A stretch of DNA of 64,000 bases from Microvirga lenta (GTDB lineage: Bacteria > Pseudomonadota > Alphaproteobacteria > Rhizobiales > Beijerinckiaceae). Position 1 is the first letter of the stretch. The number at the start of each line of letters is the position of its first letter. Location of the stretch: NCBI RefSeq assembly GCF_020532555.1, contig NZ_JAJBBR010000010.1:1-64000 (forward strand). The letters are read 5' to 3'. This document shows, piece by piece, positions 2,472 through 52,897 of this stretch. Position numbers and translations under genes: made by a program. The notes below the pieces were generated by a model that worked only from the letters and a program-made list of their open reading frames with translations, searched no databases and was not told the origin of the DNA.

Positions 2472-2693
2472 CGATCGAGATCCCTCGTGGAGCATCGAAG
2501 TGTTCAGCGAGCGTCATTCCCATGAACAACAGAGGGATACGAGCAGCGTTCCTCATGGGTGGTGGCCGTGCGGCAAATTCCGTACGGTGGCGGACAAAAC
2601 AGAGGCTCCGCAAGCGGCCTGCCGGCTGGGCCGCGGCGCATCCCGAAGGCGAGGGGCGCCCGCTTCGCAGGGGCAGCGAAGGCTTCGCATCCC

Positions 2694-6555: not shown

Positions 6556-6567
6556 GGATGAGAGCCC

Positions 6568-7059: not shown

Positions 7060-7241
7060 ACCTCCCTGCCTTGGAAGTCCGCCCGAAGCGAGATCCGAGC
7101 ACCGGTGAAGAGGCCCTGACTCGGCACGAGCCTCGGACGCGGTGAGGGGAGGCCCGGCTACGAGCTCTGCTCACAGCCAAGGTTGTCGTTCGAATTGCCG
7201 TGCCTTCGCGCGTCACCCCTCGTTATAGGGCCTTGGGACTA

Positions 7242-7270
7242 TTGACGCTGCATGCTGGCGCGCCTACATC
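7242..7270 (+). promoter_or_regulatory. Candidate sigma70 promoter of the PadR-RND operon
   Basis: TTGACG at 7242-7247 is a good -35. A loose -10 (TACATC at 7265-7270 or CATCAT at 7267-7272) follows at 17-19 nt. Transcription would start at about 7277-7281, essentially at the ATG, which agrees with the absence of a ribosome binding site. Confidence 0.4.
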
Positions 7271-7289
7271 ATACTCCAATATGGAGTAT
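7271..7289. promoter_or_regulatory. Palindromic operator overlapping the padR start codon
   Basis: ATACTCCAATATGGAGTAT is a perfect 8-bp inverted repeat with a 3-nt centre. The start codon (7281-7283) lies inside it and the candidate -10 abuts it. PadR regulators bind dyad sites near their own promoters, so this is a strong candidate autoregulatory operator. Confidence 0.6.
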
Positions 7290-7868: not shown

Positions 7869-8997
7869 GGGCATTACCTTGAAGAAAAACTTTGCTGTCG
7901 TGCTTACCGTGGCCGCCGTCGTTGCGGCGGGAGCCGGGGGGGCGCGCTACCTGAAGAACGATACGGCCCAGGCGGTGGCTCCGACTACGGCTCCCGGGCC
8001 CACGGTGGTCGAACTCGCAGCGAGCGAGATCTCCGAAGTGCGTAAGACGGACCTTCGGTTCAACGTCCCGCTCGCCGGTACCCTGCGCCCTGTGGATCAG
8101 ACGACGCTCAAGTCGGAGGTTGCGGCGAAGGTGTCGGAGGTCCTGGTTCAGGAGGGCCAGCCTGTAAAGAAGGGTGACGTCCTCGTGCGTCTCGATACCG
8201 AGGATCTCGAAACCAGGCTGAACGAGCGCGTGGCCAACCTCGAATCCGCGAAGGCACAGCTTGTGCTGGCGGAGAAGAACCGCTCGATGAAGCTCAGCCT
8301 TCAGCAGAAAGGTTATGCGGCCCAGGCCTCCGTGAACGAGGTCGAGAGCTCGTACCGGGCTGCCCAGGCGAGCGTTCGCGCACAGCAGGCGCAGGTCGAC
8401 CTCGCCCGGAAGGCGCTCGAGGAGGCCGTCGTAAAGGCTCCGATGGACGGGTTCGTGTCCGAGCGTGCCGTCAATCCGGGCGACAAGGTTCCCGTGGACG
8501 GCAAGCTGCTGACGCTGATCGACCTGGCGAAGCTCGAGATCGAGGCGCCGGTGCCGACGAACGAGATTGCACTCGTGGCGGTGGGACAGAAGGCGAGCTT
8601 CCGCGTGCCTGGCATCGAAGGTCGAGAGTTCTCCGGCCGAGTCGAACGGATCAATCCGACGACGAAAGCCGGCTCCCGCTCGATCCCGGTCTATATCCGG
8701 GTCGAAAACGGCGACCAGGTTCTGCGCGGCGGCATGTTCGCCTCGGGCGACATCGTTGTCCGGGAGGTAAAGGAGGTCGTCGCAGTCCCGCCGGAAGCGG
8801 TGCGCGGCGACGCCGACCGTAAATACGTGCTCAAGCTCGACGGCGGCAAGATCGCCCGGCAGTCGGTCGAGGTGTCGGAGGACGCCACGGCCACCCTGGT
8901 CGCCGTGAAGTCGGGCCTGTCGGAGGGCGACACTGTTGTGAGCGCCCCGTCCATCATTCTCGAACCGGGTACTCCGGTCCGCATCGGCGGAAAGTAA
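7855..8997 (+). CDS. RND efflux periplasmic adaptor (HlyD/MexA type membrane fusion protein)
   Basis: A 380-residue adaptor with an N-terminal membrane anchor (FAVVLTVAAVVAAGAGGARYL). A split lipoyl/barrel-sandwich domain (KVSEVLVQEGQPVKKGDVLVRLDTED ... VVKAPMDGFVSERAVNPGDKV) encloses an alpha hairpin, then beta-barrel and membrane-proximal domains follow. It bridges the inner membrane pump to an outer membrane TolC-like channel, which is not encoded in this window. The ATG overlaps the padR end; a TTG at 7879 with AGGGG upstream is an alternative start that would begin LKKNFAVVL. One nucleotide separates it from the pump gene. Confidence 0.9.
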   Translation: MTSTRGITLKKNFAVVLTVAAVVAAGAGGARYLKNDTAQAVAPTTAPGPTVVELAASEISEVRKTDLRFNVPLAGTLRPVDQTTLKSEVAAKVSEVLVQEGQPVKKGDVLVRLDTEDLETRLNERVANLESAKAQLVLAEKNRSMKLSLQQKGYAAQASVNEVESSYRAAQASVRAQQAQVDLARKALEEAVVKAPMDGFVSERAVNPGDKVPVDGKLLTLIDLAKLEIEAPVPTNEIALVAVGQKASFRVPGIEGREFSGRVERINPTTKAGSRSIPVYIRVENGDQVLRGGMFASGDIVVREVKEVVAVPPEAVRGDADRKYVLKLDGGKIARQSVEVSEDATATLVAVKSGLSEGDTVVSAPSIILEPGTPVRIGGK

Positions 8998-34141: not shown

Positions 34142-35200
34142 TCAGGTGCTGCGACGCTCGATCAGAACGTGGCTCGTATCGATGACGCGCCGCGCGTCCT
34201 CGGCATGAGGCTCTTGGATGCGCGCGAGGATCAGGCGAGCGACTTCCTTTCCGATCAGATCTCCCGAGGGTCTGATCGTGGTGAGCGAGGGGACGCAGGA
34301 GGTGCTGAAATCCAGGTCGCCGAAGCCGATCAGGGCGACGCGCTCGGGAATCGCAATGCCCCGGCGCTGACATTCGAACAGAACGCCCAAGGCGATCAGG
34401 TCGTTGGAGCAGGCGATGCCGTCGAGATCCGGGGCCTGTTGAAGAGCCCGGTTGAGGAGAAGGGCGCCGGCCTCGACCGTGGCGGCGCCAGGGTGATTGA
34501 TAATTTCGCAGATCGGGGCTCCCCCGCCCTTGCCGGCCTCCGCGAAGCCGCTGGCGCGTTGCGCCGCACGGCGATCCTCGTCCATCCGCGCTCCCAGGAA
34601 GACAAGGTTGCGGCGGCCTTTCGAGAGCAGATGCCCTGCCGCCGAGGCGCCGACCTGTGGATGGGAGAAGCCGACGGCCATGTCGATGGGCTCTCCTCCA
34701 ATCTCCCACATCTCGACTACCGGCACACGGCTGGCTTTCAGCAGCTTGCGGGTTTCGGGGCTGTGATTGAGCCCCGTCAGCACGACGGCGGCCGGCGCCC
34801 AGGAGAGGGCGGTCCGGACCAAGGCCTCTTCCTGGCCTTCCCCGTATTCGCTGTGCCCGAGGAGAACCTGGAGTCCCTCGGCGGCGAGGGCGGATTGAAG
34901 CGTCGAGACCGTTTCTGCGAAGAAGGCGTTGCGGATCGAGGGCACGATGATGCTGACGACCCGGGAGGAGGCTGCGGCGAGCCCGCCGGCAACTAGATTG
35001 GGCACGTAGCCCAGCGTATCGATGGCCCGGGCAATGTCCTGTCCGGCTGCGGGGGACACCGCGTCGGGCTTGCGCAGATAGAGCGAGACCGTGGAGGGGG
35101 ACACCTGGGCGAGCTTGGCGACGTCCATCATGGTGACGCGCTGCATCTTGCGCCGTTTCCGAGTCGCCCGGGTCTGGATCGTTCCGCCTCCTGAATCCAC
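34142..35200 (-). CDS. LacI family repressor of the sulfoquinovose cluster
   Basis: A 352-residue regulator. The helix-turn-helix TMMDVAKLAQVSPSTVSLYLR is followed by the hinge and a periplasmic-binding-like effector domain (RVVSIIVPSIRNAFFAETVSTL ... DLDGIACSNDLIALGVLFECQRRGI ... RVALIGFGDLDFSTSCVPSLTTIRP). GTG 35200 is preceded by GGGAGA with 7 nt spacing, while an internal ATG 18 codons on would start right at the helix-turn-helix. The gene diverges from the ABC-pathway operon, and two palindromes with the LacI-type core AGCGCT lie between them. The effector is inferred to be sulfoquinovose or a derivative. Confidence 0.88.
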   Translation of the reverse strand: MDSGGGTIQTRATRKRRKMQRVTMMDVAKLAQVSPSTVSLYLRKPDAVSPAAGQDIARAIDTLGYVPNLVAGGLAAASSRVVSIIVPSIRNAFFAETVSTLQSALAAEGLQVLLGHSEYGEGQEEALVRTALSWAPAAVVLTGLNHSPETRKLLKASRVPVVEMWEIGGEPIDMAVGFSHPQVGASAAGHLLSKGRRNLVFLGARMDEDRRAAQRASGFAEAGKGGGAPICEIINHPGAATVEAGALLLNRALQQAPDLDGIACSNDLIALGVLFECQRRGIAIPERVALIGFGDLDFSTSCVPSLTTIRPSGDLIGKEVARLILARIQEPHAEDARRVIDTSHVLIERRST

Positions 35201-35215
35201 GAAAAGTCTCCCTAA

Positions 35216-35231
35216 TTCGTAGCGCTCCGAA
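35216..35231. promoter_or_regulatory. LacI-type operator O2 near the repressor gene start
   Basis: TTCGTAGCGCTCCGAA is a palindrome with a single mismatched pair around AGCGCT. It starts 16 nt upstream of the repressor start codon, next to its ribosome binding site, which fits autoregulation. Its centre is 130 bp from O1. Confidence 0.6.
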
Positions 35232-35238
35232 GGGAGAG

Positions 35239-35266
35239 CTTAATCCCTTTCCAGCGCGGATGACAA
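35239..35266 (-). promoter_or_regulatory. Weak candidate promoter of the lacI gene
   Basis: On the minus strand TTGTCA (35266-35261) and ATTAAG (35244-35239) are separated by 16 nt and lie just upstream of O2. The -10 match is poor. Confidence 0.3.
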
Positions 35267-35332
35267 GAAAATCAACCATATAGAGGGGATATTCCTGCTC
35301 CGGACGCCTGTTGAGAGATATAGCCTCCGGTC

Positions 35333-35361
35333 TTGCGGCAATTTCATCGTAGCGCTATGAT
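35333..35361 (+). promoter_or_regulatory. Promoter of the sulfoquinovose operon
   Basis: TTGCGG (35333-35338), a 17-nt spacer and TATGAT (35356-35361) form a good sigma70-type promoter. The -10 lies within operator O1, so repressor binding would block RNA polymerase. Predicted transcription start is near 35367, about 85 nt before the first gene. Confidence 0.6.
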
Positions 35362-35364
35362 GAA
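35343..35364. promoter_or_regulatory. LacI-type operator O1 over the operon promoter
   Basis: A 22-bp palindrome: arms TTCATC and GATGAA around the perfect core TAGCGCTA (35350-35357), with a single mismatched pair between arm and core. The AGCGCT core is the common recognition sequence of many LacI-family regulators. Confidence 0.7.
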
Positions 35365-35451
35365 TGAAATCGGCCGTGCGGAAGCGGTCTTTTGCTGCTG
35401 CCGCGAAAGGTCCACGCGTCGAGCCGACGCGCCAGGAACAGGTGAGGAAGC

Positions 35452-37855
<2,404 letters not shown>

Positions 37856-37875
37856 GCCGCTCCACCCCATGACCC

Positions 37876-37901
37876 GACGGACGCCTCAACCGGCGTCCGT
37901 C
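37876..37901 (+). other. Hairpin after the binding-protein gene
   Basis: GACGGACGC (37876-37884) pairs perfectly with GCGTCCGTC (37893-37901), 8-nt loop, no T-run. It is located between the binding-protein and permease genes, where such stems typically stabilise the upstream message. Confidence 0.55.
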
Positions 37902-37932
37902 CCCAACGTTGCAACCGGGCAGGAACATGACG

Positions 37933-38871
37933 ATGGCAACGGCCAGCGAAACAGGCATCATCACGGCGCATCGTGAAGGCGCCACGAAATGGTGGACGCG
38001 CTTCCTCGATCCGAGCGAGCGCACCCTTGCGGCTCTCCTGCTGGCTCCGACGGCGCTGCTGCTCTCGCTCATCATCGTCTATCCTGTCTGCCGCCTGGTC
38101 TGGACGAGCTTCCAGAATCTGTCGCTCACCTCCGGGCTCCCGGCGGAGTTCGCAGGGCTCGAGAATTACCGTCTGATGATCGACGATCCGGTGTTCTGGG
38201 AGACCACCTGGAACACGGTTCTCATCACGCTGATCACCGTTCCCGGCGCATTGCTGGTCGGCCTCGGGCTCGCCCTCATGGCCAACATGCCCTTCAGGCT
38301 GAAGTGGCCGGTTCGCCTGTCCCTTCTCATTCCCTGGGCGCTGCCGCTCTCCTTCGCCGGCCTGATCTTCGCCTGGTTCTTCCACTCCGAGTACGGGGTG
38401 GTGAACGACGTGCTCCGGCGAGTCGGCATCGAAGGCATCATCTGGTTCAATTCCGCCAATTGGGCCTTCGCGGCCATCTGTCTGACCATCATTTGGAAGA
38501 CCTCGTCCTTCATGGCGCTGATCATCCTGGCCGGACTGCAGACCATTCCGCGCTCCCTCTACGAGGCTGCGGAGGTCGATGGGGCAGGGCGCTTCCGCCA
38601 GTTCTTCGAGATCACGCTGCCGCTCCTGAAGCCGGCCATCGTGGTGGCCCTGATCTTCCGTACGATCACGGCGCTCCAGACCTTCGATATTCCCTTCACC
38701 ATGACCCGCGGCGGGCCCGGCACGTCCACGGCGACGCTGGCCATGTACATTCACCAGAACACCGTCGATTTCCTCGATCTGGGCTACGGCTCCGCGCTGG
38801 CGGTCGTGATGTTCCTGCTCTCCATGTGCGTGACCTTCGTCTATCTGCGCATGATCCGCGCCAAGGGGTGA
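37933..38871 (+). CDS. ABC transporter permease, MalF/UgpA type
   Basis: A 312-residue permease with six helices, beginning [29 protein letters not shown]. It contains the EAA coupling motif [27 protein letters not shown]. The CUT1 feature [25 protein letters not shown] near the end is typical of MalF/UgpA. ATG 37933 has AGGA 8 nt upstream; ATG 37927 and TTG 37909 are in frame but less well placed. It forms the heteromeric channel with the next gene. Confidence 0.9.
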
Positions 38872-38876
38872 CAGCC

Positions 38877-39728
38877 ATGAACGCCGAAGCACCTGCAACC
38901 CAGTCGCTCCTCTCCGGCAAGCCGCTGCGGCTTCTCATCGCGTTCATCCTCGTGATGAACGGCATGTTTCCGGCCCTGTGGATCCTCTTCACTTCGCTCA
39001 AGACCGAAGCGGAGCTGACGGTGAAGCCGATCACCTGGCTGCCTCATGCGCCGACGATCGCGAACTACCTGCGCGCCTTCACGGACCAGCCGCTGCTGCT
39101 CTTTCTGTTCAACAGCTTCATGGTGGCGATCCTTTCGACCGCACTGACCCTGTTCGTATCGGTTCTGGCGGCCTATGCCCTGGCGCGCCTGCAACTGCGG
39201 GCGCGGGATCTGATCCTGTCGGCGATCATCGCCGTCTCGACCTTCCCCTTGGTGACCCTGCTCGTGCCTCTGTTCGAGATCATGCGGGCGCTCGGCCTCC
39301 TCAATACCTGGGTGGCGCTGATCCTGCCCTACACGGTTCTGAGCCTGCCGGTCTGCACCCTGATCCTGGTTTCGTTCTTCGAGGGCATTCCGCGCGACCT
39401 CGAAAACTCCGCCATGATCGACGGCTGCACCCGCATCGGCGCTCTGTTCAAGGTCGTCGTGCCACTCTCGGCGCCGGGCGTGTTCACCGCGGGCATCCTG
39501 GCCTTCGTCAATGCCTGGGACGAGTTCCTGCTCGCTCTCTCATTCAATTCCAATCCCATGCTGCGCACCCTGCCGGTCGGCATCACGCTCTATCAGGGCG
39601 AGTTCGCCTTCCCCTGGCCGGTGATCTCGGCGGCGCTCGTCGTCGGCATCGTGCCGGTCGCGGTTCTGATCGTGATCTTCCAGGAGCGCGTCGTGTCGGG
39701 CCTGACCTCCGGCGGCATCAAAGGTTGA
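38877..39728 (+). CDS. ABC transporter permease, MalG/UgpE type
   Basis: A 283-residue permease with six helices (LRLLIAFILVMNGMFPALWILFTSL at the start) and the EAA motif DLENSAMIDGCTRIGALFKVVVPLSAPG, where the usual E-A-A reads E-N-S-A. AAGGGG precedes ATG 38877. It starts 5 nt after the first permease, and the next enzyme gene begins 10 nt after it. It completes the sugar importer. Confidence 0.9.
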   Translation: MNAEAPATQSLLSGKPLRLLIAFILVMNGMFPALWILFTSLKTEAELTVKPITWLPHAPTIANYLRAFTDQPLLLFLFNSFMVAILSTALTLFVSVLAAYALARLQLRARDLILSAIIAVSTFPLVTLLVPLFEIMRALGLLNTWVALILPYTVLSLPVCTLILVSFFEGIPRDLENSAMIDGCTRIGALFKVVVPLSAPGVFTAGILAFVNAWDEFLLALSFNSNPMLRTLPVGITLYQGEFAFPWPVISAALVVGIVPVAVLIVIFQERVVSGLTSGGIKG

Positions 39729-39738
39729 GGACTTTCCC

Positions 39739-41472
39739 ATGACACGCCGACCCCTCGCAGACCTGCGGAGCCAGCGCTGGTTCGCCTCCGACGACATGCG
39801 CGGCTTCGCGCATCGCCAGCGCACACAGCAGATGGGCATGCGCCGCGAGGAATTCCTCGGAAAGCCCGTTGTCGCCATCCTCAATACCTGGAGCGACATG
39901 AGCCCGTGCCACTCGCACCTGCGCGACCGGGCCGAAGCCGTGAAGCGCGGCGTGTGGCAGGCCGGCGGTTACCCCGTTGAGCTGCCCGCCCTCTCCGTCG
40001 GCGAAGTGATGGTGAAGCCCACCACCATGCTCTACCGCAACTTCCTGGCCATGGAGGTGGAGGAACTGCTGCGCTCCCACCCGGTCGACGGGGCGGTGCT
40101 GCTCGGCGGCTGCGACAAGTCCACGCCCGGCCTGCTCATGGGCGCGATCAGCATGGATCTTCCGGTGATCTTCTGTCCGGCGGGTCCCATGTCGAACGGG
40201 CAGTGGCGCGGCGTGAAGACCGGGGCCGGAACCCATACGAAGAAATATTGGGACGAGCTGCGCGCCGGTAACATCACGCAGGACGATTGGGTCGACCTGG
40301 AAAGCCGCATGACCCGCTCCATCGGCACCTGCAACACCATGGGAACGGCCTCCACCATGACTTCCATCGTGGATGCCATGGGCCTGACGCTTCCGGGCGC
40401 TTCCTCGATCCCGGCCGCGGACAGCGGGCATACCCGCATGGCATCGTCCTGCGGCGAGCGGATCATGGAGATGATCTGGGAGGACCTGAAGCCCTCCCGC
40501 ATCCTCGATGCACGCAGCTTCCGCAACGGACTCGTGGCCTACATGGCGCTCGGAGGCTCGACCAATGCCGCCGTTCACCTGATCGCCATGGCCCGCCGCG
40601 CCGGAGTGGAGCTGACCCTCGACGACATGTCCGACATGGCCGGCAAGGTGCCGGTCTGCGCCAATCTCTTCCCGTCGGGCGAGTACCTGATGGAGGATTT
40701 CTATTTCGCAGGCGGCCTGCTGGCGATGCTCAAGAAGCTCGAGGCCCATCTCGATCCGGAGGCAAAGACGGTCAACGGCCGGACCTTGGGCGAGAACATC
40801 GCCGATGCCGAGTGCTGGAACGACGACGTGATCCGCGGCCCCAACAACCCGGTGGTGCCGCTCTCGCAGGGCAAGACCCTGGCCGTGCTCCGGGGCAACC
40901 TCGCTCCCAACGGCGCGGTCATGAAGTCCTCGGCTGCCAACCCCAAATTCCTCAAGCATGTGGGCCCGGCCATCGTCTTCGACAGCCCGGCCGAGATGAA
41001 CAAGGCCATCGACGATCCCGATCTCGACATCACCGAGGACAGCGTTATCGTCCTGCGCAATGCGGGCCCCGTGGGAGCGCCGGGGATGCCCGAATGGGGC
41101 AATCTGCCCATTCCGAAGAAGCTCCTGAAGCAGGGCGTGCGCGACATGGTCCGCATCTGCGACGGGCGCATGAGCGGCACCCATTACGGCACCTGCATTC
41201 TGCACGTGGCACCCGAAGCCGCCGTGGGAGGCCCCCTCGGTCTCCTCAAGACGGGCGACCTGATCGAGCTGGACGTGGCGGCCGGGCGGCTCGACATGCG
41301 CGTCGCTCCAGCCGAACTGGAGCGCCGCAAGGCCGAGTGGAAGCCGACCGCGCCGGTTTACGGGCGCTCCTTCGCCGCCCTCTACCAGCGCCATGTCTCG
41401 CAGGCCGACGAGGGCTGCGACTTCGATTTCCTGAGCGCGCCCGGCCCGGTGGCCGAGCCCGTGATCTTCTGA
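39739..41472 (+). CDS. IlvD/Edd family dehydratase, probable 6-deoxy-6-sulfogluconate dehydratase
   Basis: A 577-residue dehydratase of the sugar-acid subgroup. The Fe-S ligands are C57 (SPCHSH), C125 (GGCDKSTPG) and C198 (GTCNTMGTA), the positions known for the [2Fe-2S] pentonate dehydratases. By itself the protein would be called an L-arabinonate dehydratase. In this operon, with a sulfoquinovosidase, lactonase and aldolase, the expected substrate is 6-deoxy-6-sulfogluconate, giving 2-keto-3,6-dideoxy-6-sulfogluconate. Start and spacing (10 nt after the permease) are unambiguous. Substrate is inferred, not shown. Confidence 0.85.
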   Translation: MTRRPLADLRSQRWFASDDMRGFAHRQRTQQMGMRREEFLGKPVVAILNTWSDMSPCHSHLRDRAEAVKRGVWQAGGYPVELPALSVGEVMVKPTTMLYRNFLAMEVEELLRSHPVDGAVLLGGCDKSTPGLLMGAISMDLPVIFCPAGPMSNGQWRGVKTGAGTHTKKYWDELRAGNITQDDWVDLESRMTRSIGTCNTMGTASTMTSIVDAMGLTLPGASSIPAADSGHTRMASSCGERIMEMIWEDLKPSRILDARSFRNGLVAYMALGGSTNAAVHLIAMARRAGVELTLDDMSDMAGKVPVCANLFPSGEYLMEDFYFAGGLLAMLKKLEAHLDPEAKTVNGRTLGENIADAECWNDDVIRGPNNPVVPLSQGKTLAVLRGNLAPNGAVMKSSAANPKFLKHVGPAIVFDSPAEMNKAIDDPDLDITEDSVIVLRNAGPVGAPGMPEWGNLPIPKKLLKQGVRDMVRICDGRMSGTHYGTCILHVAPEAAVGGPLGLLKTGDLIELDVAAGRLDMRVAPAELERRKAEWKPTAPVYGRSFAALYQRHVSQADEGCDFDFLSAPGPVAEPVIF

Positions 41473-41479
41473 GGACGCC

Positions 41480-42286
41480 ATGATCGACATCGAAAACCGC
41501 TTCAAGCGCTGGCTTCAGGGAGCGGGCCCGAAACCGCCGCTGGGAACCTGGCTGATGGCGGCGGCTCCCGCCACCGCCGAGGCCATGGGCTATACGGGCT
41601 TCGACTTCCTCGTGGTCGATATGGAGCACGTGCCGATCGAGGTGGCGGATCTGGCCCACATCCTGCGCGCCATCGGCTGCACGCCGGCCGAGGCGGTCGT
41701 CCGCATGGCCTGGAACGACCAGATCCTCATCAAGCGCGTTCTCGATGCAGGCGCCCAGACCATCATGGTGCCTTTCGTTCAGAACGCCGAGGAAGCCCGT
41801 CAGGCGGTCGCCTTCGCCAAATATCCGCCGCACGGCGTGCGCGGGGTCGCTGCGGTCCATCGCAGCTCCCGGTTCGGCCGCGCGTCCGACTATCTCAAGC
41901 GGGCGAACGACGAGGTGGCCGTGATCGTCCAGCTCGAGACGCCGGAGGCCATCGAGCGGCTGCCGGAGATTGCAGCCGTGCCGGGCGTCGACGCGCTCTT
42001 CGTCGGGCCGGGCGATCTCTCTGCGGCCATGGGCTATATCGGCAACATCACGCATCCCGAGGTTCAGGCTCTCATTGCGAAGGCCGCGAAGGATTCCCAT
42101 GCCGCCGGAAAGCCCGTCGGCATCGTCGGTCCCAATCCCGAGATGGTGCGCCGCTTCATCGACTACGGCTACGATTTCGCCGCCATCGCCTCCGACATCG
42201 CCATGATGACCGGCCGCGCCACAGACTGGCTCGGCGCGCTTCGCGACCAGCCGGTGCAAGTGGCGCCCGCAGCTGCCGCCTATTGA
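41480..42286 (+). CDS. HpcH/HpaI family aldolase, probable 2-keto-3,6-dideoxy-6-sulfogluconate aldolase
   Basis: A 268-residue class II aldolase. Catalytic/metal features are VVDMEHVPIE (H50), VQLETPEA with E153, and FVGPGDLS with D179, the Glu and Asp that bind the divalent metal in HpaI/GarL. It cleaves 2-keto-3-deoxy acids into pyruvate plus an aldehyde. In a sulfo-Entner-Doudoroff pathway the aldehyde is 3-sulfolactaldehyde. The ATG follows the dehydratase stop after 7 nt. GarL-type (glucarate) activity is the main alternative and is made unlikely by the cluster. Confidence 0.85.
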   Translation: MIDIENRFKRWLQGAGPKPPLGTWLMAAAPATAEAMGYTGFDFLVVDMEHVPIEVADLAHILRAIGCTPAEAVVRMAWNDQILIKRVLDAGAQTIMVPFVQNAEEARQAVAFAKYPPHGVRGVAAVHRSSRFGRASDYLKRANDEVAVIVQLETPEAIERLPEIAAVPGVDALFVGPGDLSAAMGYIGNITHPEVQALIAKAAKDSHAAGKPVGIVGPNPEMVRRFIDYGYDFAAIASDIAMMTGRATDWLGALRDQPVQVAPAAAAY

Positions 42287-42296
42287 GGTTCGCTCC

Positions 42297-43957
<1,661 letters not shown>

Positions 43958-43965
43958 GCCCTTCC

Positions 43966-45981
43966 ATGCAGATCCAGACACAACCCAACGGCTTCGACCT
44001 CCTCCTCGACGGCAGGCTTATCCTGCGCCACCGGAGCGATGTTCCATGCCTTTTCGTCGGCCATGGCGAAGCGCGCATGGACATGTACCGGGGCAATTTC
44101 GACATCGAGGACTATGTCGTCGAGCGCACGCCTCTCGCTCACGCCGAGATCACCGGGACGGACGACGGCTGCGACATCGCCTTCGCGTCCGCGCCGGGGC
44201 AGCCTGTGCGGCTCACGCTGAGCATTTCGGGCGACGAGCGCAACGGCGTCGTCTTCTTCAATGCTCAGGATCTGTCGATCAACCGTGTCTGGCTGCGGGT
44301 TCAGGCCGAGGCGGATGAGCATGTCTGGGGCGGCGGCGAGCAGATGTCCTATTTCGACATGCGCGGTCGCCGCTTTCCTCTATGGACTTCCGAACCCGGC
44401 GTCGGGCGCGACAAGTCGACGGAGATCACCTTCAAGGCGGACGTGACGGGCAAGTCGGGCGGCGACTACTGGAATACCAATTACCCGCAGCCGACCTATG
44501 TCTCGTCCCGTCGCTATGCGCTCCATGTGGAGACGACCGCCTATTCCGCCTTCGACTTCCGTCGCGAAGGGTTCCACGAGATCGAGGTTTGGGCTGTGCC
44601 GGAGCGGATCGAGCTTGCGTCTCGACCGACCTTTCTCGCCCTGGTCGAGACGCTGTCCGAGCGCTTCGGCCGTCAGCCGCCTCTGCCCGAATGGGTCTAT
44701 GGGGGCGCCATCATCGGCCTGAAGGACGGGGCGCGCTCCTACGAGCGGCTCGACGCCATCGTCGCGGCCGGAACGAAAGTGTCCGGCCTCTGGTGCGAGG
44801 ACTGGGTGGGCCTGCGCAACACTTCCTTCGGCGCGCGCCTGTTCTGGGATTGGAAAGCGAACGAGGACCGCTATCCGGGCCTGCGCCAGCGCATCGCCGA
44901 GATGGCGGAGCGCGGTATCCGCTTCCTCGGCTATGTCAATCCGTACCTTGCCGTGGACGGATCGCTGTTTCCCGAGGCCGATGCGGCGGGCTATTTCGCG
45001 AAGGACGAGGCGGGCAAGACTGCCCTCGTGGACTTCGGCGAGTTCGATTGCGGCGTGGTGGACTTCACCAATCCCGACGCGGTGGAATGGTTCGCCGAAC
45101 GGGTGATCGGGCAGAACATGCTCGATTTCGGCCTTTCGGGCTGGATGGCCGATTTCGGCGAGTACCTGCCCATCGACGTGCATCTCGCCAACGGCGTCGA
45201 TGCGAAGCTCATGCACAATGCCTGGCCGACCCTCTGGGCCGAGGTGAATGCCCGGGCGGTGGAAAGCCGCGGCAAGACGGGCGAGATCCTGTTCTTCATG
45301 CGCGCGGGGTTCACGGGCGTGCAGAAATACTGTCCGCTGCTCTGGGCCGGGGACCAGTCGGTGGACTTCACCCGTCACGACGGTCTCGTGACGGTGATAT
45401 CGGGCGCCCTCTCGTCGGGCCTCCTCGGCAACGCCTATCACCACTCGGACATCGGCGGCTATACGAGCCTGTTCGGCAATGTCCGCACTGCAGAACTCAT
45501 CATCCGCTGGGCAGAGATGGGGGCCTTCACGCCGGTCATGCGGACCCACGAGGGCAATCGGCCGCGCGACAACCTGCAGATCGACCAGGACCCGGAGGTG
45601 CTCCGCCACTTCGCTCGGATGACGCAGGTCTATGTGCATCTCGTGCCGTACCTGAAGTCGCTCGTGGCGGAGGCCTCCGCGCGCGGGTTGCCGGTGCAGC
45701 GGCCGCTCTTCCTGCATTTCGAGGACGATGCCCGCGCCTACACGATCCAGGACGCCTATCTCTACGGGCCCGATCTGCTCGTGGCTCCCGTCTGGCAGGC
45801 GGGCAGGACCGAATGGACGACCTACCTTCCGAAGGGCGCGGATTGGGTCCATGTATGGTCCGGCCGAACCTTCGCGGGCGGCGAGGAAGTCACGGTGGCC
45901 GTGCCTTACGGTCAGCCGCCCGTATTCCATCGGGCGGGCTCCGCCTTCTCGGAGCTCTTCGCAGGCCTGAAGGATCTCTGA
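43966..45981 (+). CDS. GH31 sulfoquinovosidase
   Basis: A 671-residue GH31 enzyme that releases sulfoquinovose from sulfoquinovosyl glycerol or the sulfolipid SQDG. The nucleophile is D396 (GWMADFGEYL) and the acid/base D463 (WAGDQ). Sulfonate-recognising residues described for sulfoquinovosidases are all there: K253 (GLKDGAR), E278 (CEDW), R291 and W294 (FGARLFW), and Y499 (DIGGYTS). Their mutual spacing equals that of the Agrobacterium tumefaciens enzyme (K245, E270, R283, W286, acid/base D455, Y491 as I remember them), with a constant offset of 8. No signal peptide is seen, so it acts in the cytoplasm after uptake. This is the key diagnostic gene of the cluster. Confidence 0.93.
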   Translation: MQIQTQPNGFDLLLDGRLILRHRSDVPCLFVGHGEARMDMYRGNFDIEDYVVERTPLAHAEITGTDDGCDIAFASAPGQPVRLTLSISGDERNGVVFFNAQDLSINRVWLRVQAEADEHVWGGGEQMSYFDMRGRRFPLWTSEPGVGRDKSTEITFKADVTGKSGGDYWNTNYPQPTYVSSRRYALHVETTAYSAFDFRREGFHEIEVWAVPERIELASRPTFLALVETLSERFGRQPPLPEWVYGGAIIGLKDGARSYERLDAIVAAGTKVSGLWCEDWVGLRNTSFGARLFWDWKANEDRYPGLRQRIAEMAERGIRFLGYVNPYLAVDGSLFPEADAAGYFAKDEAGKTALVDFGEFDCGVVDFTNPDAVEWFAERVIGQNMLDFGLSGWMADFGEYLPIDVHLANGVDAKLMHNAWPTLWAEVNARAVESRGKTGEILFFMRAGFTGVQKYCPLLWAGDQSVDFTRHDGLVTVISGALSSGLLGNAYHHSDIGGYTSLFGNVRTAELIIRWAEMGAFTPVMRTHEGNRPRDNLQIDQDPEVLRHFARMTQVYVHLVPYLKSLVAEASARGLPVQRPLFLHFEDDARAYTIQDAYLYGPDLLVAPVWQAGRTEWTTYLPKGADWVHVWSGRTFAGGEEVTVAVPYGQPPVFHRAGSAFSELFAGLKDL

Positions 45982-45984
45982 GGA

Positions 45985-46755
45985 ATGTCAGCTGCGGAGC
46001 TGGTGGGCTTTCTTCTTCTCGCCGGGGCCGCAGCCTATGCGCAGACCCTGACCGGTTTCGCCTTCGGGCTGATCACCATGGGCGGGATCGCTCTGACCGG
46101 GCTGCTTCCGCTGACGGATGCGGCGGCGATCGTCAGCGTGCTCACCCTGGTCAACGCCACGCAGATGCTCCTCAAGGGCTGGCGCGATGTCGCCTGGCGC
46201 GAGTTCTGGCTCGTCATGGCGACGAGCGTGCCGTTTCTCTTCGCGGGCTATGCCCTGCTCGAGTGGCTCGCCGAGACCCGTACCGATCTCCTGCGCCTGA
46301 TCCTTGGTCTCATCATCATCGTGTCCAGCCTCCAGCTCGCGCGAAAGCCCGAGCCTCTGGGCCGGCTGTCCGGCTCGGGCTCCTTCCTGTTCTTCGGCAG
46401 CATCGCCGGCCTGATGGGAGGGCTCTATTCCACCGCAGGGCCGCCGCTCGTCTATCACTTCTATCGTCAGCCGATGCCCCTCGTGCAGATCCGCGAGACC
46501 CTCGTCACGGTCTTCGCGCTCAATGCAGTGTTCCGTATCGGCCTCGTGGGTTTCACCGGCAACCTGCCGACCGGTTCGGCCTGGTTCGGGCTTCTCGCGG
46601 TTCCCATGGTCATGGGAGCGACCTATGCCGCACGCCGCTGGCCGCCGCCGCTCTCCCCCAAAACGACGCGCCGCATCGTCTTCGTCCTGCTGTTCCTCTC
46701 CGGAGCGTCTCTCGCGGCGCCGGCTCTGGTGCCGATATTCGGAAGCTCGGTCTAG
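45985..46755 (+). CDS. TauE/SafE family exporter, probable sulfolactate (sulfonate) exporter
   Basis: A 256-residue protein with about eight helices and the two-fold repeated pattern of TauE/SafE proteins (YAQTLTGFAFGLITMGGIALTG in the first half, SIAGLMGGLYSTAGPPLVYHFY in the second). TauE/SafE proteins export sulfite or organosulfonates and occur in several sulfosugar gene clusters. It begins 3 nt after the sulfoquinovosidase gene, so it is the last gene of the operon. It would release the C3 sulfonate end product. Its stop overlaps the convergent Sel1-like gene in a shared CTAG. Confidence 0.87.
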   Translation: MSAAELVGFLLLAGAAAYAQTLTGFAFGLITMGGIALTGLLPLTDAAAIVSVLTLVNATQMLLKGWRDVAWREFWLVMATSVPFLFAGYALLEWLAETRTDLLRLILGLIIIVSSLQLARKPEPLGRLSGSGSFLFFGSIAGLMGGLYSTAGPPLVYHFYRQPMPLVQIRETLVTVFALNAVFRIGLVGFTGNLPTGSAWFGLLAVPMVMGATYAARRWPPPLSPKTTRRIVFVLLFLSGASLAAPALVPIFGSSV

Positions 46756-47924: not shown

Positions 47925-48393
47925 ATCGCTTTATGAGAGGGATTTCTCGGTCGCCCGTGCGTTCCGTCAGAACATACGGCCGGGAGCCGGCGTCCCACAA
48001 TCGGCACCTAAGGGTGAGGCGGTCGCGACAGAGGCGGAATCGATCCCGTGCCTCCTGCGATAGGATGAGCCGTCAGCCTTCGGGAGTAGTGCGTCCCATA
48101 ATCCCGAGGAACGCGTTGTGTTCCGGCGCCTGCCGCGGTCTTGCCAAGCTGTTCGCCGAGCCCGGCCAAGTTTTCGGCCCAGCTTGCTGCAGCTTCATCC
48201 AAGAAGATGATGCTGCAACAACCGTAAACCCTTTAGGCGGATGCGAATTGGCAACTGTTTCCCATGGTCGAGAACGAGGAAGGTCTTTGCTGCCGGCGGG
48301 ATGTGCGGGATCCGATCGTGATTCTCCGACGCCCCCGGTCCGTTCCGATGGCAGATGCTTGCCGGAGCGGCCAGTCAAACGGGAGAGCGCACC
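47925..48393. other. Divergent control region between the Sel1-like and Asp-rich genes
   Basis: About 470 nt without a credible gene. The main element is the long hairpin at 48184-48221. I found no clear -35/-10 pair; the region should hold promoters for both directions. Confidence 0.4.
48184..48221. promoter_or_regulatory. Long imperfect inverted repeat upstream of the Asp/Gly-rich gene
   Basis: TTGCTGCAGCTTCATC (48184-48199) and GATGATGCTGCAACAA (48206-48221) match in 14 of 16 positions with a 6-nt loop. It lies about 170 nt before the start codon and could be a leader RNA hairpin or a binding site for a dimeric regulator. Confidence 0.45.
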
Positions 48394-49560
48394 ATGGAAG
48401 AAGAAGACACTGAAGGCACCGCCAACACCGGCAGCAACAACACCTTTACCTTCGACTTCGATTTTGATCAGGACCTTGTCCAGGATCAGGACGCGGATGT
48501 CGACGTCGATACCGACCAAGTTGCCGATATCGATCAGGATAATGACCAGACGGCCGACTCCGATGCGGTCGCCGACAATGATGCCGATCTTGATGTCTTC
48601 ACCGACAACGATGCCGACTCCGACGCGACCGCGGATTCCGACGGAGACGCCGTGAACGATATCGATAGCCCTGTCGACGGAAGCGACGGCACGGGCGGCG
48701 CCGGTGACGGCGGTGACGGCGGCGATGGCGATGGTGGCGACTCGACCGGCAGCGGCGGCGATGGCGGCAGCACGGACAACGACGGCGGAGCCGCTGGCGA
48801 CGGCGGCGACGGCGGCGATACGTTCGGTGATGGTGGCGACGGCGTGGCTGGCGACGGCGTGGGCGGCAACGGTGGCGACGGCGGTGACGGCGGTGACGGC
48901 ACCGGAGGCAATGGCACCGATGGCGGCGGCGGCGGCGACGGCGGAGCCGGCGGTACTGAAGGCAGCGGCGGCACGAGCGGCGCCGATGGGACGGATGGCA
49001 CCGATGGCGGTGGCGGCACCGGTGGAACCGGAGGTACCGGCGGCACTGGCGGAGCCGGTGGATCAGGTGGCGCCGGTGGCGCTGGCGGCGCCGGCACCGG
49101 TGGTGCTGGTGGAGCCGGTGGCGCAGGCGGCGATGGCGTGGGCGGTGCCGGCACCGGTGGTGCAGGCGGCTCGGGTACGGGCGGTGCGGCCGGCAGCGGC
49201 GGCGCTGGCGGCTCGGCCGACGGTGACGCAGGTGCGGGCGGCTCCAGCGGCAATGGCGACGGCGGTGACGGCGGAGCCGGGGCCGGTGGCGATGGCGGCG
49301 CAGGCACGGGCGGCGATACCACCAGCACGGTGACGGCCGACGCATCCACCGACAACGATGCCGATGCGAATGCCGACGGCGATGCCGATGGCGATGCTTC
49401 GGGCGATGCCACTCAGGACGCGGATGCCCTGTCCTACGTCGATCAGGATACCGGCGACGTCGATGTCGCGCAGGACCAGGCGGTCGATGTGGACGTCGTC
49501 CAGGATCAGGACGCCGACCAGGCGATCACGATCGATTTCGACTTCGGCGACTTCGGCTGA
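48394..49560 (+). CDS. Asp-rich/Gly-rich repeat protein, probable type I secretion substrate
   Basis: A 388-residue, extremely acidic protein without Cys and without a Sec signal. Residues ~19-92 are Asp-alternating ([21 protein letters not shown] ... [15 protein letters not shown]). Residues ~98-309 are a Gly-rich tract of GGDGG, GGAGG, GGTGG type. Residues ~310-388 are again Asp-alternating and end [14 protein letters not shown]. The two acidic ends resemble each other in mirror order. GGGAGAG is 7 nt before ATG 48394. The protein lies immediately upstream of a type I exporter and shares the DQDADVD(V/I)D motif with the protein at 54263-55429. Calcium binding and surface display are inferred. 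No known family recognised. Confidence 0.75.
48690..49322 (+). repeat. GGxGG-encoding low-complexity repeat
   Basis: About 630 bp of 6- and 9-nt units (GGCGGT/GGCGAC variants) coding for the Gly-rich middle part of the Asp/Gly-rich protein. The units are degenerate and lack spacers, so this is a coding repeat and not a CRISPR array. Confidence 0.85.
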
Positions 49561-49573
49561 TCGATCTCCTGCC

Positions 49574-49606
49574 GAGGCCCGGCACCCGAAAGCGTGACCG
49601 GGCCTC
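49574..49606 (+). terminator. Hairpin 1 after the Asp/Gly-rich gene
   Basis: GAGGCCCGG (49574-49582) pairs with CCGGGCCTC (49598-49606) over a 15-nt loop, 13 nt after the stop codon. Confidence 0.6.
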
Positions 49607-49608
49607 AT

Positions 49609-49644
49609 GGCCTACGCTGCCGCTCTCCTCAGGCAGCGTAGGCC
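49609..49644 (+). terminator. Hairpin 2, strong 13-bp stem before the type I exporter
   Basis: GGCCTACGCTGCC (49609-49621) pairs perfectly with GGCAGCGTAGGCC (49632-49644), 10-nt loop. With hairpin 1 it separates the abundant substrate message from the exporter genes, probably giving partial termination. Confidence 0.7.
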
Positions 49645-49697
49645 GCTTTCGCGCCCTGCCGACGGGCGATGTTGTCTGCCGGCGCCCGTGAAGACCA

Positions 49698-51545
49698 ATG
49701 GGAGACCTGCCGCCCATGGCCCTATCGTGGATGAGAACCCGTCCCCGGACCGAGATCGAGATTGCCTTCAGGCTCTGCCGCGCCTCACTCATCATGGTGT
49801 TCGCGCTGAGCTTCTTCCTCAATTTTCTGGCACTGACCGTTCCGCTCTATCTGCTTCAGGTCTACGACCACGTCCTGTCGAGCCACAGCATCGACACGCT
49901 CGTGATGCTGACCGGCATCGCCGTCGTCGCGCTCGCCGTGAGCGCCATCCTGGACGGCCTGCGCCGGGAGATGCTGTCGCGGATCGGAACCTGGCTCGAC
50001 GACCGCATTCAGGCCTCGGTCCTGACGGCGGCGGTTCAGGCCGCGCTCCGGAGCGATCCGACGGCCGCCGCCCAGTCCTGGCGTGATCTGAACGGACTGC
50101 GCACCTTTTTCGCCGGCAATGCCTGCAGCGCGCTCTTCGATCTGCCCTGGACGCCGATCTTCGTCCTGGCGATGATCATCGTCCATCCGCTGCTCGGCAT
50201 CCTCGGGCTTGTCGCATCGCTCATCCTGTTCGGCCTGGCGCTGCTCAACGAGACGCTGACGCGCCGGTCCGTCGCCCGTGCAAGCATGGCCTGGTCCAAC
50301 AGCCAGCATCGCTTCGAGGCCCTCCTGCGCAATGTGGAGGCCATCAGCGCCATGGGCATGCTGCCCGGCGTGGCTCGCATCCTTCACGACGAGCAGGTCG
50401 AGGCGAAGCAGGCCCAGCTCTCGGCAGGTGCCCGCGGCGCGATCATTCAGTCCCTCGCGCGCTTCGTCCGCCTCTTCACCCAGGTCACGGTCATGGCCTT
50501 TGCCTCCTGGCTGGTCATTCGCCACGATATCAGCCCGGCGGCCATCTTCGTGAGCTCGATCCTTCTCGGCCGGTCCCTCGGCCCCGTGGAAGGCGCCATC
50601 GGGACGTGGAAGGCGGTCACGAGCGTTCGGCTGGGCTATGCCCGCCTGCAGAAGCTGATGGCCGCCGCTCCGCCCAAGGGGCCCGGCATGTGGCTGCCCC
50701 GGCCGAAAGGCGATCTCTCCATCGAGCAGTTGAGCTACACGCCGCCCGGCTCCGACACCTTGGCCCTCCGGCGTCTCAGCTTCAGTCTGAAATCGGGAGA
50801 GGTGCTCGGCGTCGTCGGCCCTTCAGGTGCCGGCAAGTCGACCCTCGGGCGGCTCATTGCCGGGGTCATCATTCCCACGGCAGGGCACGTGCGCCTCGAC
50901 GGAGCGGACATGTCGATCTGGATGGCGTCGGGCGGCCACGGGCATTTCGGCTACCTGCCGCAGGACGTCGAGCTCTTCGGCGGTACCGTTCGCGAAAACA
51001 TTTCCCGCCTGCAGGATGCTGCGTCGGAGGACGTGATCGCTGCGGCGACCCTGGTGGGACTGCACGAAACGATCATGCGCCTGCCGCACGGCTACGATAC
51101 CGATATCGGGGAAGGAGGCGCACGCCTTTCGGGCGGGCAGCGCCAACGTCTCGGGCTGGCGCGGGCCTTCTTCGGCGAGCCCCGCCTCGTCGTGTTGGAC
51201 GAACCGAACGCGAGCCTCGACCAGGACGGCGAGGATTCCCTCCGGCAGGCGATCCTTGAGATGCGCGACCGCGGCGTGACCGTGGTCGTCATCGCCCAGC
51301 GCCTCGGTATCCTCAGCATCTCGGACAAGGTTCTGATCCTCGAGAACGGCGCCCTGAATGCCTTCGGATCCCGCCGGGACGTGGCCGAGAAGATCAGGAG
51401 CGGGCGCACGGCCATCAAGGTCAAGGGGCCACAGGTCATCGACGAACGCCGGAAGCCGGTCCAGGATACCCGGCCCGCTCAGTCCTTGCCGGATGTGTCG
51501 AACGGGCCGATGCTGCTCGACGAGGCGAAGAGGGCCGTGTCATGA
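49698..51545 (+). CDS. Type I secretion system permease/ATPase (PrtD family)
   Basis: A 615-residue fused membrane-ATPase exporter. Six helices occupy roughly residues 28-300, without an N-terminal peptidase domain. The ATPase part has Walker A GPSGAGKST (374-382), Q-loop Q422 (YLPQDVELFGG, typical of PrtD), signature [14 protein letters not shown] (478 on) and Walker B LVVLDEPNASLD with E502. The switch position expected to be His is Q534 (VVVIAQRLG). ATG 49698 has a poor binding site; ATG 49716 (MALSW) has GGGAG upstream at a long spacing. It overlaps the adaptor gene (ATGA). Its likely cargo is the adjacent Asp-rich protein. A TolC-like partner is not in the window. Confidence 0.88.
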   Translation: MGDLPPMALSWMRTRPRTEIEIAFRLCRASLIMVFALSFFLNFLALTVPLYLLQVYDHVLSSHSIDTLVMLTGIAVVALAVSAILDGLRREMLSRIGTWLDDRIQASVLTAAVQAALRSDPTAAAQSWRDLNGLRTFFAGNACSALFDLPWTPIFVLAMIIVHPLLGILGLVASLILFGLALLNETLTRRSVARASMAWSNSQHRFEALLRNVEAISAMGMLPGVARILHDEQVEAKQAQLSAGARGAIIQSLARFVRLFTQVTVMAFASWLVIRHDISPAAIFVSSILLGRSLGPVEGAIGTWKAVTSVRLGYARLQKLMAAAPPKGPGMWLPRPKGDLSIEQLSYTPPGSDTLALRRLSFSLKSGEVLGVVGPSGAGKSTLGRLIAGVIIPTAGHVRLDGADMSIWMASGGHGHFGYLPQDVELFGGTVRENISRLQDAASEDVIAAATLVGLHETIMRLPHGYDTDIGEGGARLSGGQRQRLGLARAFFGEPRLVVLDEPNASLDQDGEDSLRQAILEMRDRGVTVVVIAQRLGILSISDKVLILENGALNAFGSRRDVAEKIRSGRTAIKVKGPQVIDERRKPVQDTRPAQSLPDVSNGPMLLDEAKRAVS

Positions 51546-52897
51546 GGAGCGGGAAAAACACTCCTGTCCTGGACCTTGCCGCCGTCCTGCCGCCTCCTCC
51601 TCCGACGCCGTTTCAACGCATGGGCTTCCTGGCGGTCAGCGCCTTCGCGCTGATCGGCGTCTTCGTGATCGGGTTCGGTGTCTGGGCGACGCAGGCGCCC
51701 CTCGAGAGCGCCGCCATCGCGGGCGGCGCCATCGAAGCGGAATCGAGCCGCAAGACCATTCAGCATCTGGAGGGAGGGATCATCGGGCGGATTCTGGTGA
51801 AGGACGGGGACGAGGTGACCGCCGGCCAGCCGCTCATCCGCCTCGACGATACCAAGGCCCGTGCCACGCTCCAGGTTCTGCAGGGCCAGCTATGGGATGC
51901 GCAGGCCCGGGAGGCCCGCCTTCTGGCCGAGCGCGACGGACATCAGGCGCTTGAGTACCCCGAAGGGCTCGCGAGGGCCGCAGCCGACAACCCGGCCGTC
52001 ACGGAGGTGCTGAGCGGCCAGCAGAAGATCTTCGAGACGAGACGCCGCCTTCAGGAATCGCGCATCGACGTCATCCGCCAGCGCAAGGGGCAGACCCTGC
52101 GGGAGATCGAAGGCCTCCGTTTCCAGGAAGGTGCCGCCACCAAGCGTGCCCGGATCATCAAGGAGGAGCTGGCTGCAATCGCACCCCTTGTGGCCAAGGG
52201 CCTGCAGACCCGTCCGCGACTGCTGCAACTCGAAAGGGAGCAGGCCGAAATCGATGGCCGGCGCGGCGACACGCTGGCGCAGATCTCCCGCGCCGAGCAG
52301 GCGGTCGGCGAGGCCGAGGCCCAGATCCTGAAGCTGCAAAGCGACTGGCATTCGGAAATCGCCCTGGCCCTGCGCGACACGCAGAGCCAGATCTTTCAAC
52401 TCCTCGAGCGCATTCAGGCGGCGACCGACGTGCTGGCGAGGACGGAGGTCCGGGCGCCGGAGGCGGGTACGGTCACCAACCTGCGCATCCATACTCCGGG
52501 CGGCGTCATCGCCGCCGGCGAGCCTCTGATGGACCTCGTGCCCCAGCAGGACAGATTGATCGTTCAGGCACAGGTGAAGCCGGATGACATCGATCTCGTC
52601 CGGCCGGGTCTCACCGCGAGGGTCCGACTTCTCGCCTACAAGCAGCGGCGCGTTCCCCCGGTGGAGGGCGTCCTCACCTATGTCTCGGCAGACCGGCTCG
52701 TCGATAAGGAAACCGAACAGGTCTATTACACGGCACGCATTCAGCTCGACGAGGCGGCGCTGCACCAGTTGCCGGAAGTCGAGATCATGCCCGGCATGCC
52801 GGTCGAGGTTCTGATCAAGACCGGCGAGTTCACCGTTGCTCACTACATGCTGCGTCCGGTTCTGGACAGCTTCAACCGAGCCTTCCGCGAGAACTGA
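51542..52897 (+). CDS. Type I secretion membrane fusion protein (HlyD/PrtE family)
   Basis: A 451-residue adaptor with a short cytoplasmic tail, one membrane helix (MGFLAVSAFALIGVFVIGFGVWATQAPLES) and a biotinyl-lipoyl part (TIQHLEGGIIGRILVKDGDEVTAGQPLIRLDD). A long coiled-coil hairpin covers ~110-290, and the HlyD C-terminal motif VRAPEAGTVTNLRIHTPGGVIAAGEPLMDLVP follows. ATG 51542 overlaps the exporter stop. It connects the ATPase to an outer membrane channel. Confidence 0.93.
   Translation: MRSGKNTPVLDLAAVLPPPPPTPFQRMGFLAVSAFALIGVFVIGFGVWATQAPLESAAIAGGAIEAESSRKTIQHLEGGIIGRILVKDGDEVTAGQPLIRLDDTKARATLQVLQGQLWDAQAREARLLAERDGHQALEYPEGLARAAADNPAVTEVLSGQQKIFETRRRLQESRIDVIRQRKGQTLREIEGLRFQEGAATKRARIIKEELAAIAPLVAKGLQTRPRLLQLEREQAEIDGRRGDTLAQISRAEQAVGEAEAQILKLQSDWHSEIALALRDTQSQIFQLLERIQAATDVLARTEVRAPEAGTVTNLRIHTPGGVIAAGEPLMDLVPQQDRLIVQAQVKPDDIDLVRPGLTARVRLLAYKQRRVPPVEGVLTYVSADRLVDKETEQVYYTARIQLDEAALHQLPEVEIMPGMPVEVLIKTGEFTVAHYMLRPVLDSFNRAFREN

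Follow-up and report, generated by a model that had tools for sequence, protein, structure and literature searches.

A cluster of eleven genes in Microvirga lenta very probably encodes the uptake of sulfoquinovose (SQ) glycosides and their degradation, through a sulfo-Entner-Doudoroff (sulfo-ED) pathway, as far as sulfolactaldehyde (SLA). SQ is the sulfur sugar of plant membranes. The cluster occupies positions 34142 to 46755 of the window, by which we mean the whole 64,000-nucleotide stretch analyzed here (positions 1 to 64,000 of contig NZ_JAJBBR010000010.1). The gene for the last enzyme, SLA dehydrogenase (SLADH), is absent from the window, and sequence comparisons suggest that a GabD-type aldehyde dehydrogenase (ALDH) encoded on another contig, C11, probably takes its place.

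The eleven open reading frames (ORFs) have no internal stops and only short gaps between them. A LacI-family regulator gene is divergent from ten genes in the order abc-sbp-perm-perm-dehydratase-aldolase-lactonase-SDR-GH31-tauE (SDR, short-chain dehydrogenase/reductase; GH31, glycoside hydrolase family 31). The gene list proposed by the initial annotation of this DNA was confirmed by the ORFs and by the Pfam families, for which ten of the eleven proteins (all except the TauE/SafE protein) were searched, with every family named below scoring above its cut-off. The features are as follows.

34142..35200, minus strand: LacI-family regulator (Pfam LacI; in Rhizobium, Shinella, and Elstera, homologues of 62 to 67% identity are likewise transcribed away from the cluster)
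35217..35230, strand not assigned: operator-like dyad TCGTAGCGCTCCGA, site 1, near lacI (intergenic conservation)
35347..35360, strand not assigned: operator-like dyad TCGTAGCGCTATGA inside ATCGTAGCGCTATGAT, site 2, on the importer-operon side (intergenic conservation)
35452..36525, plus strand: MalK/UgpC-type ABC importer ATPase (ABC_tran, OB_MalK, and TOBE_2)
36593..37855, plus strand: predicted solute-binding protein of the SmoF (SQ/SQ-glycerol-binding) type (SBP_bac_1; SmoF match)
37909..38871, plus strand: importer permease 1 (BPD_transp_1)
38868..39728, plus strand: importer permease 2 (BPD_transp_1)
39739..41472, plus strand: IlvD/Edd dehydratase, predicted sulfogluconate dehydratase (PF00920, ILVD_EDD_N/ILV_EDD_C; tree)
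41480..42286, plus strand: HpcH/HpaI aldolase, predicted 2-keto-3,6-dideoxy-6-sulfogluconate (KDSG) aldolase (PF03328, HpcH_HpaI; synteny)
42297..43178, plus strand: SMP-30 lactonase, predicted sulfogluconolactone lactonase (PF08450, SGL; synteny)
43193..43957, plus strand: SDR, predicted NAD-dependent SQ 1-dehydrogenase (PF13561, adh_short_C2; match to the Pseudomonas putida enzyme and residues)
43966..45981, plus strand: predicted GH31 sulfoquinovosidase (SQase) (Glyco_hydro_31; 5ohs/5ohy match and residues)
45985..46755, plus strand: TauE/SafE permease at the end of the cluster, predicted to export sulfolactate (syntenic homologues)

The genes, their homologies and key residues, their synteny, and the missing SLADH gene are direct observations. 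From these we infer all activities, from import to export, as well as the role of the C11 enzyme and the regulation. The binding protein and CUT1 importer would take up SQ-glycerol and/or SQ, and the GH31 SQase would free SQ from its glycoside. The SDR would then oxidize SQ with NAD to sulfogluconolactone, which the SMP-30 protein would hydrolyze to sulfogluconate; the IlvD/Edd enzyme would convert sulfogluconate to KDSG, and the HpcH/HpaI aldolase would cleave KDSG to pyruvate and SLA. The single GabD-type ALDH on C11 would most likely oxidize SLA to sulfolactate, TauE/SafE would export the sulfolactate, and the LacI protein, acting on two dyads with an AGCGCT core, would repress the operon.

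Predicted sulfoquinovosidase and SQ import

The closest solved relative of the GH31 protein (5ohs/5ohy; 72.5% identity) is titled "Alpha-glucosidase yihQ" and is a protein that we take to be the Agrobacterium SQase (AtSQase). Residues K253, E278, R291, W294, and Y499 match K245, E270, R283, W286, and Y491 of AtSQase, presumably the SQ-binding residues, and D396 and D463 match D388 and D455, presumably its catalytic Asp pair, so that all seven compared residues are conserved and the sulfonate-recognition residues claimed by the initial annotation are kept in this alignment. The closest solved match of the binding protein is SmoF (7nbz; E value, 4.9e-194; 73.4% identity over 391 amino acids).

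The import genes vary within the genus. Among 22 examined Microvirga relatives, eight have an importer of a type other than SmoF; clusters in which another ABC importer replaces the SmoF type (our loci L096 at 211-8384, L162, L165 to L168, L172, L177, and L182) add a second TIM-barrel (GH31-like) protein, and some of them also carry a mannonate dehydratase gene. A glpK gene lies directly downstream of the cluster in L096 (15971-19036), L161, L162, and L182, accompanied by glpD except in L161, an adjacency that fits glycerol release from SQ-glycerol.

The pocket of the predicted SQ dehydrogenase

The closest solved match of the SDR is the SQ dehydrogenase of P. putida (PpSQDH; 9gwu; E value, 2.5e-90), to which it is 58 to 61% identical. 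It keeps ten of ten tested PpSQDH residues, including Arg151 and Arg153, the counterparts of PpSQDH Arg152 and Arg154. According to PMC12133307, Arg152 forms a salt bridge with the sulfonate and Arg154 holds a sulfonate-bound water.

This pair of arginines tracks the SQ loci. Arg152 (PpSQDH numbering) is present in all 68 SDR rows from SQ loci and Arg154 in 61 of them, a set in which some genomes occur twice and in which the contig of L175 ends before GH31. The comparison dropped the short duplicate loci L001 and L099 to L122, and twelve SDR rows below 40% identity were left uncounted; four of these twelve align Arg at position 152, where the alignment is unreliable at such distance. Sixty SDR paralogues from the same search (44 to 52% identity) retain the catalytic and most sugar-binding residues, and yet Arg152 is missing in 55 of them and Arg154 in all 60, so that the pair occurs in 61/68 cluster SDRs versus 0/60 paralogues.

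Two points weigh against the SDR being an SQ dehydrogenase. An eleventh residue, the C-terminal Gln260 of PpSQDH, corresponds to Asn254 in the window SDR, and Arg152 is not exclusive to the SQ loci, being found together with Ala154 in five of the 60 paralogues. Therefore, Arg152 alone is no proof, and the Arg152/Arg154 pair is the better mark, which helps to separate SQ dehydrogenases by sequence from paralogues of 44 to 52% identity. The five Arg152/Ala154 paralogues (L258, L259, L261, L263, and L266) are from Microvirga genomes, and four of them also have Glu in place of the NAD-binding Asp45.

Dehydratase, aldolase, and lactonase

The families of the SQ sulfo-ED pathway given in PMC9594981 are PF13561, PF08450, PF00920, and PF03328, and all four are present in the cluster. 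In a tree of 26 cluster dehydratases, the window protein joins 25 others borne by clusters in alpha-, beta-, and gammaproteobacteria, in a group (support, 88/86; recovered in 90% of 200 bootstrap trees; paralogue branches long) that excludes four paralogues from its own genome and the solved proteins 8ej0 and 9evv, the latter titled L-arabinonate dehydratase. The dehydratase phylogeny suggested as a check by the initial annotation thus places the protein with SQase-linked dehydratases, apart from the solved L-arabinonate dehydratase. The aldolase is 51 to 94% identical to the aldolases of syntenic clusters.

Some relatives have other gene complements around the lactonase. Ten Microvirga clusters (L169 [at 8166], L170, L174 to L178, and L180 to L182) carry between aldolase and lactonase an extra aldose-epimerase-like gene, judged by sequence rather than by family search and absent from the window, which is perhaps an SQ mutarotase. 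In L021 (Elstera) and L166 (genome G017), the dehydratase, aldolase, SDR, and GH31 genes are present and no lactonase match was found; for Elstera, this agrees with PMC13372026.

Alternative substrates

Automatic annotation would make this an operon for a pentose or hexuronate such as arabinose, xylose, or glucarate. The dehydratase scores above the cut-off of the NCBIfam L-arabinonate dehydratase model (NF009559; 933 bits versus 882), and the GH31 protein scores above that of alpha-glucosidase (973.8 versus 553); the nearest models of the SDR (D-xylose 1-dehydrogenase), the aldolase (HpaI/GarL), and the LacI regulator (GntR/IdnR) all fall below their cut-offs. Plasmid records likewise label syntenic genes "araD: L-arabinonate dehydratase" and "alpha-glucosidase," bearing out the warning of the initial annotation that ordinary annotation misleads here. 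Against a pentose or hexuronate operon stand the SQase (72.5%) and SmoF (73%) matches, the two pocket arginines of the window SDR, which occur together in none of the 60 paralogues, and the placement of the dehydratase. Because the dehydratase groups with the SQase-linked ones, we read its NF009559 score as an over-extension of the model, and we regard a pentose or hexuronate operon as highly improbable.

We give equally little credence to an ED pathway for sulfofucose (6-sulfogalactose), which shares its enzyme families with the window for three of the four steps. The sulfofucolytic ED system of Paracoccus wurundjeri has dehydrogenase, lactonase, and aldolase of the same families, with no classical SLADH found; however, its dehydratase belongs to the enolase-type PF13378/PF02746 rather than to PF00920, the family of the window dehydratase, and no glycosidase or sulfofucosidase was identified there (PMC12421959). 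In contrast, the window encodes a GH31 SQase, and the E. coli and Agrobacterium SQases are reported to be inactive on para-nitrophenyl sulfofucoside (PMC12421959). The central route of the initial annotation, from SQ-glycoside to SQ and through sulfo-ED to pyruvate and SLA, is strongly supported by the closest solved relatives, the SDR pocket residues, the family and tree of the dehydratase, and synteny.

Comparison with known systems and distribution

The sulfo-ED cluster of Rhizobium WSM4643 (the R. leguminosarum SRDI565 type) matches all eleven genes in order and orientation, at 58 to 86% protein identity, and differs in having an SLADH gene directly after tauE. The sulfo-ED pathway of P. 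putida SQ1 uses the same four enzyme families (PMC9594981); sequence comparison with that strain was limited to the SDR and gave the PpSQDH identity and conserved SQ-pocket residues described above. The window importer and SQase are also 69 to 87% identical to those of the Agrobacterium SQ cluster (the SQ monooxygenase, or sulfo-SMO, pathway; L020, L022, L026, and L027), but the examined flanks of those loci yielded no ED enzymes, and no SmoC-like monooxygenase was found in the window genome.

The TauE/SafE protein shares 78% and 59% identity with the products of syntenic genes that carry the annotation "sulfite exporter TauE/SafE family protein," and it had no match in an NCBIfam search; its name is thus based on those syntenic genes. 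Among the 22 examined relatives, tauE was not found in L165, L166, L172, and L177, and L175 ends early.

We surveyed 80 named loci encoding near GH31 relatives, the best 80 of 596. In these 80, the nearest loci are from Microvirga (82 to 85% GH31 identity), and 32 also have the dehydratase, aldolase, and SDR genes in the examined flanks, 14 of them together with a gene resembling that of the Rhizobium SLADH, RlGabD. Genomes assigned to the genus of the window also contain stretches identical in sequence to named Microvirga loci. Within the genus, 23 of 37 genomes (M. lenta included) have the ED genes, and 14 have none, as judged by an SDR of at least 81% identity.

A full-text literature search, supplements not covered, returned no paper linking Microvirga with SQ or sulfo-ED. 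The suggestion that a pathway in this lineage and in this order may be undescribed is compatible with that search as far as the lineage goes; the gene order is not new, because it equals that of Rhizobium WSM4643 up to tauE. The sulfo-ED cluster is well supported and, within the searched literature, new for Microvirga, its kind and order being known.

A probable detached last enzyme

No PF00171 aldehyde dehydrogenase was found in the window or in the contig to which it belongs, among 14 PF00171 proteins genome-wide. The gene that follows tauE in Rhizobium WSM4643 encodes a protein differing from the solved SLADH RlGabD (8c54) at two of 489 positions, and an SLADH gene likewise stands beside tauE in Shinella and in four Microvirga clusters. 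As this gene is absent here, the cluster cannot be called complete, contrary to the initial annotation. Sulfo-ED clusters usually include an SLA dehydrogenase or reductase gene. Neither enzyme is among the four reference proteins used for sulfo-ED in PMC13372026.

The sole close RlGabD homologue of this genome lies at C11:298519-299976, is about 82% (81.6%) identical to the WSM4643 gene, and keeps eight of eight named RlGabD residues (positions 179 and 182 in E. coli numbering are outside the eight, and one of the two differs); the next-best ALDH has 37% identity to the RlGabD type. On these comparisons, the C11 enzyme is the likelier candidate for the oxidation of SLA to sulfolactate, and we hold this assignment with moderate confidence, below that given to the rest of the pathway.

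Among the 23 Microvirga genomes with ED genes, counted by hand at no less than 70% identity and with an E value limit of 1e-160 at which fragments would be missed, an RlGabD-like gene is located in the cluster in four (G014, G024, G031, and G033) and only elsewhere in 16, and it was not found in three. G014, G024, and G031 yielded no copy at that identity besides the one in the cluster.

Several observations count against a role of the C11 enzyme in SQ degradation. The three cluster-bearing genomes in which no RlGabD-like ALDH was found within this limit are G002, G009, and G025, the last two having clusters cut off by a contig end. Further, 11 of the 14 Microvirga genomes that have no such cluster carry an ALDH of the C11 type as well, and the C11 ALDH is therefore probably a GabD enzyme of general function, acting on succinate semialdehyde (SSA). 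The RlGabD arginines compared also have counterparts in human SSA dehydrogenase (SSADH), according to PMC10599462. Activity of the C11 ALDH on SLA is accordingly put forward here as a guess.

The four cluster-borne Microvirga ALDH copies nest among the detached ones rather than forming one clade (approximately unbiased test, p-AU 4.6e-7, for a clade that was named after a first tree had been seen). The first tree was built without L133, L140, and L155 (copies of included rows), L160 (the L006 gene again), the cluster copy L010, and rows lacking a locus, and the tree for the test further dropped eight long-branch rows and the outgroup. The simplest reading is that one GabD-type enzyme may do both jobs and that its gene has been relocated or copied into the cluster more than once, the alternative to repeated entry being loss of the ALDH gene from the cluster with gene conversion. 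RlGabD is reported to be 61% identical to E. coli SSADH (PMC10599462), which fits an origin of SLADH from a GabD-type enzyme. We tentatively propose, at slightly less than even chances, that Microvirga runs sulfo-ED without a dedicated last enzyme, a general GabD serving both SSA and SLA and its gene having entered the cluster several times.

Two further gene arrangements were noted. On C11, an aldose-epimerase-like gene (L129, 7472-8569) and the GabD-type ALDH gene are some 2 kb apart, separated by two opposite-strand genes. Downstream of tauE, GapN-type ALDH genes occur in the Microvirga loci L005 (13119), L096 (20749), L162 (602), and L167 (5232), and their products are possible alternative SLA dehydrogenases.

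Fate of sulfolactaldehyde and sulfolactate

The same pathway might also end otherwise, with SLA reduced to 2,3-dihydroxypropane-1-sulfonate (DHPS) or oxidized by an unrelated dehydrogenase, the C11 GabD then not being the last enzyme. The lack of an SLADH gene in the cluster speaks for either outcome, as does G002, which has ED genes and no RlGabD-like gene found. DHPS-ending sulfo-ED is known in Vibrio and predicted in Aeromonas cavernicola (PMC13372026 and PMC12133307), and the sulfofucose degrader makes sulfolactate without a GabD or SlaB homologue (PMC12421959). The GapN-type genes downstream of tauE in M. calopogonii (L005/L167) and M. ossetica (L096) would likewise suit an unrelated dehydrogenase. 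However, no reductase gene is found among the window cluster genes, the 18 PF03446 matches of the genome are all at most 31% identical to the A. cavernicola cluster ORF that resembles an SLA reductase, and a close RlGabD homologue is present in the genome. We therefore consider DHPS formation or an unrelated dehydrogenase rather unlikely and favor oxidation by the C11 enzyme.

Further breakdown of sulfolactate was considered as well. A genome search for PF04295, which we take to be the family of SuyB (sulfolactate lyase), did not reveal a two-part sulfolactate lyase, SlcC and ComC not being searched for; the only PF04295 protein is a fused 515-amino-acid UxaA-like protein, whose gene is followed on the opposite strand by a UxuA-like one. 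With that protein as the sole match, mineralization of sulfolactate to sulfite looks unlikely. The three PF00296 matches of the genome include no SmoC-like protein above 30% identity (best, 29%), the SmoC reference being the ORF upstream of the importer in the Agrobacterium locus L020, taken as SmoC by position only. Because no sulfolactate lyase, SmoC-like monooxygenase, or reductase-like protein was found in these searches, export of sulfolactate through TauE/SafE is the likely end of the route.

Operator-like dyads and probable regulation

Two dyads with the common core AGCGCT lie between lacI and the importer genes. A scan with a 16-base consensus found 64 sites with at least 12 matches in 34 such intergenic regions, where mononucleotide shuffles predict 0.3, and a site with at least 14 of 16 matches is present in every one of the 34 regions, which span Microvirga, Rhizobiaceae, Devosia, and Bradyrhizobium; the consensus was fixed after the window had been seen, and the relatedness of the sequences inflates these counts. 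Four duplicate genomes were dropped, L044 was skipped (no matching pair), and L036 and L183 represent one genome twice.

Counts in the M. lenta genome alone show no enrichment of the operator pattern: a 14-base version allowing up to three mismatches occurs five times in the window versus 3.8 expected (33 of 100 shuffles reach five), and TCGTAGCGCTNYGA with up to one mismatch has 15 matches genome-wide versus 27 for the reversed control. The only two exact TCGTAGCGCTNYGA matches in the genome are the two lacI-importer sites. The evidence for the operators is thus their cross-genus conservation, not enrichment in their own genome. The LacI protein is likely a repressor responsive to SQ or an SQ metabolite. 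The literature found on LacI operators for SQ concerns E. coli or a comparison with it.

Shared control of the C11 ALDH gene with the SQ operon was considered and rejected. A dyad upstream of that gene (ATCGTGGAGCCACGAT) matches 13 of 16 positions of the operator consensus and lacks the core, and no site with 12 or more matches was found before the 25 other detached ALDH genes examined, so that no such control is supported.

Five Bradyrhizobium loci (L032, L034, L035, L042, and L043) combine an SQase with a SmoF-type importer and share the operator dyads, with no ED dehydratase or aldolase match in their flanks. Elsewhere in the window, at 48355-52897, a Gly/Asp-rich repetitive ORF of 401 amino acids, likely a secreted repeat protein, is followed by type I secretion ABC/membrane-fusion-like genes.

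Implications

The cluster adds Microvirga, a genus of soil and legume-nodule bacteria, to the probable consumers of a very abundant plant sulfonate, and it corrects the arabinose and alpha-glucosidase annotations of the cluster genes. The missing SLADH gene may mean that a housekeeping enzyme completes a specialized pathway here, which would bear on the "missing step" in SLA oxidation reported for the sulfofucose degrader (PMC12421959). The detached last enzyme is the part of this system most worth following.

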